Source: Methylohalomonas lacus (GTDB lineage: Bacteria; Pseudomonadota; Gammaproteobacteria; Methylohalomonadales; Methylohalomonadaceae). From it: a stretch of 64,000 nucleotides of DNA. Of this stretch, positions 23,268-30,541 are shown in pieces (within the stretch, counting starts at the first letter, position 1; the number at the start of each line of letters is the position of its first letter). The translations under genes and the position numbers were made by a program. The notes below the pieces were generated by a model that had not been told where the DNA came from, did no database searches, and was given only the letters and a program-made list of their open reading frames with translations. The stretch is from positions 62,001 to 126,000 of the forward strand of contig NZ_JANUCT010000001.1 of NCBI RefSeq assembly GCF_024808875.1, read 5' to 3'.

Positions 23268-23417
23268 GTGTCTTGGGTGGTGCGCCGCGCTATCGACAAA
23301 TATCTCGACAACCACCGGCATGAGGCCGAACCTGTCCTGCCGTTGCGTGTATCGCAAAAGGTTGAAAGGTCGGCCCGCAGCTTGGGGAAATCAAATGCTT
23401 ACGAGGAGGATCAATGA
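23268..23417 (+). CDS. Ribbon-helix-helix (CopG-like) regulator, short or 5'-truncated
   Basis: The frame reads VSWVVRRAIDKYLDNHRHEA and ends NAYEEDQ with TGA overlapping the methyltransferase ATG (ATGA). KNDISVSWVVRRAIDKYL, starting after a TAA at 23250, is the second helix of a ribbon-helix-helix fold; the strand and first helix that should precede it are missing. From GTG 23268 it would be 49 residues. Either a decayed regulator or a minimal one. The overlap suggests that it was co-translated with the cassette. Confidence 0.5.
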   Translation: MSWVVRRAIDKYLDNHRHEAEPVLPLRVSQKVERSARSLGKSNAYEEDQ

Positions 23418-25249
23418 AACGCGGCAGTAAGGCGACAAACAGGCCGGGCCTCGACGCTCTCTATGAGCGTGCGCTTCCTGCCAAACGCACCGGTCCACTG
23501 TATGGAGCGTTTCCTTATCCAACCAAAATATCCCCGGAAGCCATCGCTCTATACATCGCCTCGCACACAAAACCAGGTGACATCGTGTTCGATGGGTTTG
23601 CGGGCAGCGGCACCACTGGCCTTGCAGCTTTGCTATGTGAAAATCCTTCCAATGAGCTGCGTGCCGAGGCAGACAGGCTCGGCCTCCAGGTTGAGTGGGG
23701 CGCGCGAAACGCTGTTCTCTACGAGCTTGGGGTGCTGGGTGCATTTATCGGGAAGACGCTGACCCGCCCTCCTGACACCCAATCGTTCCGAGAGGCTGCA
23801 AATAGGATTTTGAATCAGGCCGAACGGGATACCGGCTGGATGTATGAAGCCATTGACCCTGATGGCAACAAGGGGGCGCTGCGTCATGCGGTCTGGAGCG
23901 ACTTGCTGCGGTGTCCGGCCTGCCAGCGTAAAGTGACTATGTGGGATGCTTGCGTTTCACTTGAGCCGGCGAGAATCGAGTCCGCGTTTCACTGCCCATA
24001 CTGCGACCACCAAAGCAAATTTGACCAAGTTGAGAGGCTTATTGAAACCGTCGCGGACGATGTGACCGGCGATGGGACGGAACGCCGGGCACGAAAGCTC
24101 GCGCGCATTTACGGCGTTACAGGTAAAACACGGTGGTCGCGTTCGCCCACCAAAGCGGACCTGGCTTTGCTGGACCGCATCGCAGACGAGCCTATACCGG
24201 ATTGCGTGCCGAACGTATTTATTCCTTGGGGTGATCTTCATCGGAGGGGGTACCATGAAGGCATTACCCACCTGCATCACTTCTATACTCGCCGGAATTT
24301 GATTGTGTTCGCGCGGCTCTGGGAGTTGACCGAAGACTATGATAGCGGATTGCGCGATGCTCTACGGTTTTGGCTTCTCAGCTACAATGCGGCGCATGCG
24401 ACTATTATGACGCGCGTAGTTGCAAAGTCGGGGCAGAAAGACCTTGTAGTTACGAGCGCACAGCCGGGTGTTCTCTATGTCAGTGGCCTGCCGGTCGAAA
24501 AAAACCTATTCGCCGGCCTGCAGCGCAAACTCAAGACAATAGCGGAGGCGTTTTCAGTCGTTCACGGACGTTCCGGCAAGGTTGAGGTTCTTCAGGCATC
24601 GAGCTGTGCTGTAGACCTGCCCGATGGCAGTATTGACTACGTCTTCACCGACCCCCCGTTCGGGGGCAACATCCCCTATGCAGAAATCAGTTTCATCAAT
24701 GAAGCGTGGCTGGGTGATTACACCAACCGTGCGGAAGAGATTATTGTAAGCAACAGCCAGCGGAAAACCCTGAAGGAATACCAAGAGCTTTTTACCACTG
24801 CTCTTTCAGAAGTGCGGCGTATTCTAAAGCCACATGGGCAGGCGACACTCGTGTTCCACTCCGCATCGGCAGATGTATGGAATGCCCTCCAGGCCGCCTA
24901 TAGTGATGCGGGATTGAACGTGGAATGCGCCGGCGTTCTCAACAAGACACAGGGCAGCTTTAAACAGGTCACATCATCGGGCGCCGTGCGCGGTGATCCG
25001 GTATTGCTCCTCGGGAAAGACCCTGCGGCCGAAGAGACGACGCCTGAATGCGTCTGGACCATTGCCGCGAAACTCAGCGACGCCGCTCTCACACTCGATC
25101 CGTCAGAGCGGACTCCGCAGCGGCTTTATTCGCGGCTCGTGGGCCACTTTCTGACGAAACACCAGAAGGTGCCATTTGATGCCGACGATTTCTATCACTG
25201 GCACGATACACACCATTCGGCAAAGGCAACCGGTAGTGCTGAAGATTGA
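23414..25249 (+). CDS. DNA methyltransferase with internal zinc ribbon (cassette gene 1)
   Basis: 611 residues. SAM motif FDGFAGSGTTG at residues 59-69 and catalytic motif TDPPFGGN (D413-P-P-F) give an N6-adenine or N4-cytosine methyltransferase with motif I before motif IV. Between them is a long insert containing a four-Cys zinc ribbon (C167, C170, C194, C197: RCPACQ...HCPYCD) and a helical region (HLHHFYTRRNLIVFARLWEL). It overlaps a ribbon-helix-helix ORF at its start and cassette gene 2 by 71 bases at its end. It probably modifies host DNA so that the cassette's restriction activity spares it. Target sequence cannot be predicted. Confidence 0.88.
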   Translation: MKRGSKATNRPGLDALYERALPAKRTGPLYGAFPYPTKISPEAIALYIASHTKPGDIVFDGFAGSGTTGLAALLCENPSNELRAEADRLGLQVEWGARNAVLYELGVLGAFIGKTLTRPPDTQSFREAANRILNQAERDTGWMYEAIDPDGNKGALRHAVWSDLLRCPACQRKVTMWDACVSLEPARIESAFHCPYCDHQSKFDQVERLIETVADDVTGDGTERRARKLARIYGVTGKTRWSRSPTKADLALLDRIADEPIPDCVPNVFIPWGDLHRRGYHEGITHLHHFYTRRNLIVFARLWELTEDYDSGLRDALRFWLLSYNAAHATIMTRVVAKSGQKDLVVTSAQPGVLYVSGLPVEKNLFAGLQRKLKTIAEAFSVVHGRSGKVEVLQASSCAVDLPDGSIDYVFTDPPFGGNIPYAEISFINEAWLGDYTNRAEEIIVSNSQRKTLKEYQELFTTALSEVRRILKPHGQATLVFHSASADVWNALQAAYSDAGLNVECAGVLNKTQGSFKQVTSSGAVRGDPVLLLGKDPAAEETTPECVWTIAAKLSDAALTLDPSERTPQRLYSRLVGHFLTKHQKVPFDADDFYHWHDTHHSAKATGSAED

Positions 25250-30300: not shown

Positions 30301-30541
30301 CCATCTGATGCCGCCTTATGATGCTTCGAGCGATGATCACCGCGCCGTTGCGGCTGCTGCGCGAACGGTAGCGGCGGATGCCGAGGTCATCGCGGCAGGC
30401 GACGCCTATATTAGCGATCCCAACCGCTCGCTCTCAGTGCGCCGCCGAAAACTACGCGAGCATCTTGCCGGCAACGTGAGCTTTCATGAGCTCGACAGGC
30501 TTTGCGGCACTATACTCGGCATCAATACGGCGATGGGGTAG
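27332..30541 (+). CDS. Large Eco57I/type IIG-like methyltransferase with N-terminal domain (cassette gene 3)
   Basis: 1069 residues. The N-terminal ~200 residues look like a restriction-type domain: ADRFIDNLIGSTTIEYEADLRIAAKREEGYRQVKEHAAGLI has the spacing of PD-(D/E)xK nucleases (D75...E84), but the usual lysine two residues after E84 is Glu86. Motif I DMCCGSGA at 388-395 and motif IV SNPPWLAM (NPPW at 597-600), 200 residues apart, define the methyltransferase core; EWTPSWLARHLVERCL precedes motif I. A C-terminal recognition-like region follows (LSLQKFGDEGFIVISGAGGKYICAACLP; WFRTGILNSTALTEAILPF). A type IIG-like fusion or a nuclease-dead specificity subunit are both possible. Confidence 0.85.
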   Translation: MRTDLYQAREAIARCRALRQKGVVEAVLRSEFQSRLRRIFPDMEDESWINHYGEGTEAHTRVGVAGGVAADRFIDNLIGSTTIEYEADLRIAAKREEGYRQVKEHAAGLIRRGTPVSQVRGILSDTVDWYAYDVVLVPGVESEACTLDHIQLVEVETFEPEADDEPTAERLTLFLRRHLAREQSRPLIADNLAFDLGLDSPAYRRNVEAFTELVRTGREADTSIALASDLWSHFVDHLEGEGGAFRIAPYVDEVYLNILARLLSANALAGFAILSDDDELKAILNGAFFRETYQLNNLVEKDYFGWIAEPTHIGGFLPVAREIQRDLYAYDFSWRAEEDLFGRLMVQLARRSQRKLLGQEWTPSWLARHLVERCLDNVPSGESPEIVDMCCGSGAIIAEVIKAAKERYGYDDIARLGIVATGFDIDPLAVAFAKTTWVITLADEINAAAAPVTIPVYHADSLFAVTPVSASLPMLGESEAINITLDDETVQLPAGLIQPEYRELFDALIDWAYDEAQQGGAPPTAEDARTTLDTAAAASYVTLSAELREPAADAVLALASRMKKLADAGRNGIWAFILRNTYRPGLLVGQFNGLVSNPPWLAMSALAENPYRDMLSRRAGLYGVRPSGQSFLHLELGTMHLLHAVDRYLKSGAAVACLVPGTILNGNHHERFRQRGYIGSDRPVAFSVTEVWQVAPGTFKYPGAALIGKKEKNVAAADNPPGVASVTYPDRVEPVDFAIRQINKARTAWVLESDGMPAAAAGGDEVSRQGADIMPRSAVCIEILNETGQEYRVNTPQTGSEWGFTVKQAKELKGERFPGHVASCFIHRLAQSENLLPFRLGRHRAPVAIPACRDDHGTWQIYEPADIRRMGFTQTARRFTQIDKKLATIGGSTLAQRIDFRRKLSLQKFGDEGFIVISGAGGKYICAACLPIDEAARLVIDQTLYWQIVAGEDDAWFRTGILNSTALTEAILPFNPEGDFGPRHIHTLPYHLMPPYDASSDDHRAVAAAARTVAADAEVIAAGDAYISDPNRSLSVRRRKLREHLAGNVSFHELDRLCGTILGINTAMG

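Follow-up and report, generated by a model that had tools for sequence, protein, structure and literature searches.

The described systems that most resemble the locus analysed here are the type IIG restriction-modification (RM) enzymes, in which nuclease and adenine methyltransferase are found in one chain, and BREX type 3, a feature of which is the BrxXI methyltransferase with an internal four-cysteine insert. A 2026 survey reported that searches with the BrxXI insert gave no homologues outside BREX systems, and it found the BrxXI-type layout, a methyltransferase with an inserted target-reading part, in BREX-related systems centred on DUF499 and carrying DUF1156 methyltransferases (PMC12839542). 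The cassette described here consists of three adjacent genes for putative methyltransferases, and no name for such a three-methylase system was found in PADLOC 2.0, NCBIfam 2026 or the open-access literature searched. It lies in the window, the whole 64,000-nt stretch of Methylohalomonas lacus that was analysed (NZ_JANUCT010000001.1, positions 62,001-126,000 of the forward strand; GCF_024808875.1), whose relevant features are the following:

14991-30728, unstranded: cassette-bearing integrative island at the junction of TPR and lolB (border repeats, G+C)
14991-15002, unstranded: left border repeat TTCAATCCGTGA, 12 bp, direct
15170-16399, + strand: tyrosine integrase (Arm-DNA-bind_3, Phage_integrase; Pfam PF00589, PF13356)
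17990-18673, + strand: replication-initiation-like protein of the element (phrog_270, phrog_9474)
18666-20012, + strand: DnaB-like replicative helicase of the element (PF03796, PF00772; phrog_19)
23253-23417, + strand: remnant (3' part) of a ribbon-helix-helix (RHH) regulator gene, in ATGA overlap with gene 1 (DNA alignment with loci L007, L009 and L046)
23414-25249, + strand: gene 1, short BrxXI/PglXI-type adenine methyltransferase, 611 aa (PADLOC PglXI, PDLC02541, 3e-136; BrxXI alignment)
23912-24004, + strand: four-cysteine part of the gene 1 insert (C167, C170, C194, C197), at least 95% conserved in 39 homologues
25236-27335, + strand: gene 2, Eco57I-like adenine methyltransferase, about 699 aa from GTG 25236 (Pfam Eco57I, 2.7e-7; conserved start)
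27332-30541, + strand: gene 3, type IIG-like, 1069 aa, with nuclease-like N-terminus, methyltransferase and C-terminal part (PADLOC type IIG enzyme, PDLC03630, 2.6e-43; profile match)
27554-27589, + strand: candidate nuclease site D75...E84-Y-E86 of gene 3, invariant in 41/41 and aligned with D...E-x-K of relatives
30717-30728, unstranded: right border repeat TTCAATCCGTGA, 12 bp, direct

The mobile island on which the first-pass annotation had placed the cassette could be delimited by its 12-bp border repeats; it is 15.7 kb long, with a G+C content below that of its flanks. The insertion is placed at the TPR/lolB junction because the repeat copies restore the stop codon of the TPR gene and the GTG start of lolB, both genes staying intact, and TPR, lolB and ispE are adjacent in other gammaproteobacteria. 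No direct empty-site match was found, none of the compared genomes being similar enough in DNA sequence to bridge the junction. An imperfect 19-bp repeat, TGTAGCTACATAAGTAGCT, is located just inside each border (15123, 30639). Only genes 2 and 3 lie between gene 1 and lolB, the next gene 3' of the cassette, and upstream there are only genes of the element itself. The earlier statement that no helicase is present holds for the cassette but not for the island, where the DnaB-like helicase is part of the replication module of the element, outside the cassette.

The three genes are long, uninterrupted, tightly packed and on the same strand, and the ATGA overlap of genes 2 and 3 was confirmed. Each product has a SAM motif and a catalytic motif, as had been described, namely DPPF in gene 1 (413-416), NPPY in gene 2 (157-160) and NPPW in the 1069 residues of gene 3 (597-600), and the conservation of these motifs in 39-41 homologues is far above chance. 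Pfam models identified N6_N4_Mtase in gene 1, Eco57I and N6_Mtase in gene 2, in agreement with its first description as Eco57I-like, and N6_Mtase in gene 3. The 71-base overlap given at first for genes 1 and 2 needs revision: the longest frame of gene 2 opens at TTG 25176, but its start is probably GTG 25236, since a GTG or TTG is retained at that position in most close relatives and stop codons lie just upstream of it in two, which would leave an overlap of 14 bases.

Gene 1 corresponds to a shorter form of BrxXI. Comparison with BrxXI proteins of other gammaproteobacteria (open frames of 887-1044 aa) showed an identity of about 30-33% over nearly all of gene 1, with the four insert cysteines and the DPPFG motif in common, and gene 1 is without about 90 C-terminal residues and without the N-terminal part of BrxXI. 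The cysteines, seen at first pass as an internal zinc ribbon, were located as C-x2-C...C-x2-C. The surroundings differ from BREX type 3, the partners of gene 1 being methylases. PglZ occurs within 8 kb of the longer BrxXI form in six of six sampled genomes, whereas none was found in the cassette, as had been noted, nor in the whole genome of the window (98.97% complete), and neither the BrxC ATPase nor the BrxHII helicase is present at the locus. The DUF499-centred systems share the methyltransferase layout, and the cassette gives a weak match to the DUF1156 model, but it is without the DUF499 ATPase and the Swi2/Snf2 helicase. A weak methylase-domain similarity to the methylation-associated defence system MADS (mad2 model) scores far under the curated cut-off. 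In contrast with type I and type III RM systems and DISARM, no helicase or translocase gene adjoins the cassette of the window, although helicases adjoin it sporadically elsewhere; the initial view, that no gene set of BREX, DISARM or RM of types I and III fits the locus, was upheld.

A relative of gene 1 was also observed on a phage contig (L102, 5956-7701), where a 581-aa frame containing FTDPPFG is surrounded by structural-type genes, portal-like ones among them; judging from its sequence, it is a solitary phage-borne BrxXI-like methylase. Together, gene 1 and this putative phage methylase extend the BrxXI-type layout, as far as homology indicates, beyond the systems of the survey. In another contig (L099, 3730-7662), one open frame of 1310 codons holds two tandem matches to gene 1.

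Gene 3 shows the type IIG arrangement of a nuclease-like part and an adenine methyltransferase in one chain, and it aligns over its full length with stand-alone IIG-like proteins (profile E=4e-107, 955 columns), which are encoded on plasmids and measure about 1000 aa, one of them being annotated as BseRI. The nuclease that had been guessed to lie in its N-terminus has its best candidate there, in the predicted site aligned with that of the stand-alone relatives, which reads D...E-V-K in five, D...E-F-K in one and E-W-E in two. Stand-alone relatives with E-x-E, as IEWEKDL or VEWEKDL, were seen on Cupriavidus and Methylocystis plasmids (L004, L005). The canonical D...(D/E)-x-K site is not found in gene 3, the nuclease lysine being replaced by glutamate in all 41 homologues. 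D75, E84 and E86 are invariant in the same 41, and so steadier than NPPW in gene 3 itself (37/41), although the conservation of E-Y-E in the genome set is partly ascertainment because one genome-scan pattern included IEYE; the viral scans used other patterns, and E-Y-E is present in all six viral copies. The active enzyme BamHI has an E-x-E site, so that nuclease activity of gene 3 is plausible by analogy. In the AlphaFold model of gene 3 residues 1-345 (mean pLDDT 86), the elements follow the order helix-strand-strand-strand-helix-strand, and D75 and E84/E86 fall on or next to the strands where a PD-(D/E)xK site would be expected; a second, shorter model of the domain was poorer. Foldseek gave no significant match for this N-terminal domain (two models against PDB, one against BFVD), the top two non-significant BFVD matches being a PD-(D/E)XK nuclease and a RecB-family exonuclease. 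In four members from gut Bacteroidales and Akkermansia (L023, L024, L028, L035), gene 3 has NTPW in place of NPPW and retains D/E-x-E; this replacement suggests that its methylase could be weakened or lost there. The outcome named at first pass as a refutation, gene 3 proving a typical type IIG enzyme and genes 1 and 2 parts of a named system, was not cleanly obtained: gene 3 is IIG-related, but with a changed active-site residue and with two co-inherited methylases added, one of BrxXI type, and gene 1, though related to the BREX type 3 methyltransferase, is found outside BREX.

The recurrence of the cassette in unrelated genomes, which had been suggested as a check, was examined by a scan with gene 3 of 84,980 species, one genome per species. 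It yielded 42 loci, a number that the search patterns make a minimum, in about 11 phyla as labelled (Pseudomonadota, Bacteroidota, Acidobacteriota, Bdellovibrionota, Chloroflexota, Desulfobacterota, Bacillota, Actinomycetota, Verrucomicrobiota, BRC1 and Nitrospinota), several carriers being contigs of metagenome-assembled genomes that are possibly misbinned. The three genes stand in order and with tight spacing at 39 loci; the remaining three are cut by contig ends, with gene 2 still adjoining gene 3. A Hymenobacter plasmid also carries the set, with gene 1 frameshifted. Among viral contigs, the gene 3 and gene 2 queries independently led to the same six, all holding the three-gene set (gene 1 is cut by the contig end in one), and the gene 1 query added two contigs where gene 1 is followed by no more than a short piece of gene 2, with an integrase gene next in the one of them that was read out. 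The cassette is rare: among 399 Pseudomonadota genomes, gene 2 was found only in that of the window, and no solitary gene 2 was found. Between the three genes, tree distances show correlations of 0.88-0.92, where permutation reached no more than 0.24, and conflicting splits between the trees are few. That a three-gene unit exists and is co-inherited is close to certain. In L029, genes 1 and 2 are fused in one 1307-aa frame, which suggests that their proteins may work in contact. The 302-aa gene upstream (22324-23232), a PADLOC candidate (PDC-S42, 3e-111) that NCBIfam assigns to LAPAL_fam, a putative phage structural protein, had been included in the suggested check of recurrence; it is absent from every other locus and was rejected as a component.

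An RHH or Cro/C1-type regulator ends within about 100 bases of gene 1 at about 23 of 37 loci. These regulators stem from at least two unrelated families and resemble the controller genes of many RM systems (PMC4081073). The RHH gene is intact in close relatives, with 70-115 aa and RHH_1 matched in L007 and L046, whereas in the window the homology sets in only at about 23253 and the half containing the beta strand is absent. The RHH frame reported at first pass does overlap gene 1, by ATGA, but is only a 5'-truncated remnant, and a complete RHH regulator in the window was rejected. Downstream, the genes differ among loci (PLD/NgoFVII-like, OLD-like, AAA_13, DUF4238, SF1 helicase, or nothing recognisable). 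The PLD, AAA_13 and OLD-like genes were considered as obligatory effectors and rejected, being found at a minority of loci and absent in the window, and several cassettes, that of the window included, have no recognisable effector downstream.

The best reading, towards which we lean with modest confidence, is that of an RM-like system not described before, whose nuclease would lie in gene 3 and have a variant E-x-E site. The cassette would be a mobile, self-contained restriction-modification-type system built of three co-inherited enzymes. Gene 3 would be a type IIG-like fusion in which a PD-(D/E)xK-type nuclease with a D/E-x-E site precedes an adenine methyltransferase and a DNA-reading C-terminal part, while genes 1 (BrxXI-type) and 2 (Eco57I-like) would provide two further methyltransferases. 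Genes 1 and 2, and perhaps gene 3, could mark host DNA, and gene 3, probably jointly with genes 1 and 2, could cut unmarked DNA, for which we infer an antiviral role. The small swappable DNA-binding regulator found upstream in most relatives, truncated in the window, may exert control in the manner of RM controller proteins. This RM-like reading is preferred because of the recurrence of the complete set, the correlated trees and the L029 fusion, because two queries led independently to the same viral contigs, and because gene 3 combines full-length IIG homology with invariant acidic residues and the predicted order of helices and strands around them; the upstream regulators and the cassettes with no recognisable effector downstream also count in its favour. 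Against it stand the replacement of the E-x-K lysine in every member, the Foldseek result, the number of methylases, three exceeding the needs of a simple RM system, the NTPW of four gut members and the partial ascertainment of IEYE. A more specific version is put forward tentatively and is rather less probable: one obligate three-enzyme complex, in which genes 1 and 2 would recognise and mark DNA and the E-x-E nuclease of gene 3 would cut only if marks were missing, making it a PglZ-free and ATPase-free use of a BREX type 3 methyltransferase and a distinct multi-methylase restriction class.

The change of lysine to glutamate in all gene 3 members could instead mean that the nuclease site is dead, so that the three enzymes would only mark or sense DNA and exchangeable neighbours (a PLD/NgoFVII-like nuclease, an OLD-like nuclease, AAA_13/RloC-like proteins or an SF1 helicase) would cut it. 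Such genes lie directly 3' of the cassette in a number of loci, and backup nucleases are reported around BREX-related systems (PMC12839542), but we consider this explanation unlikely, as many cassettes, including that of the window, are without such a neighbour and a dead site is not expected to keep the three acidic residues in every one of the 41 members. Somewhat less likely still is a methylase set that does not restrict at all and serves in epigenetic control or shields the mobile element from host restriction. The retention of all three methylase motifs, the presence of the set on mobile elements and viral contigs and the solitary gene 1 relative of phage L102 would fit this explanation, which nevertheless leaves the invariant D/E-x-E site and the recurring upstream regulators unexplained.

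The occurrence of stand-alone gene 3 relatives on plasmids raises the question of whether a solitary type IIG-like gene 3 and genes 1 and 2, a methylase pair unrelated to it, are simply neighbours. This is highly improbable given the same order and tight spacing in about 11 phyla, the correlated trees and the finding of members of the cassette-type gene 3 subfamily only inside the cassette. Least probable of all is a BREX type 3 locus in degraded or minimal form; gene 1 is clearly a BrxXI relative, but true BrxXI is longer (about 890-1040 aa) and had PglZ nearby in every sampled genome, whereas the window genome has none and genes 2 and 3 are always present, so that this explanation is strongly contradicted and a minimal BREX was ruled out. 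If the RM-like reading is correct, the cassette would add a compact three-methylase restriction-like system spread over about 11 phyla. That BrxXI-type methyltransferases occur and evolve outside BREX is shown by the cassette. It would offer a simple setting, free of PglZ and ATPase, for learning which targets its BrxXI-type methylase recognises, and also one for asking if a type IIG-like nuclease can work with an E-x-E site. Elsewhere in the window, a short tandem repeat array, read as DTRYEIR repeats, was observed between prs and the next gene (33532-33714).
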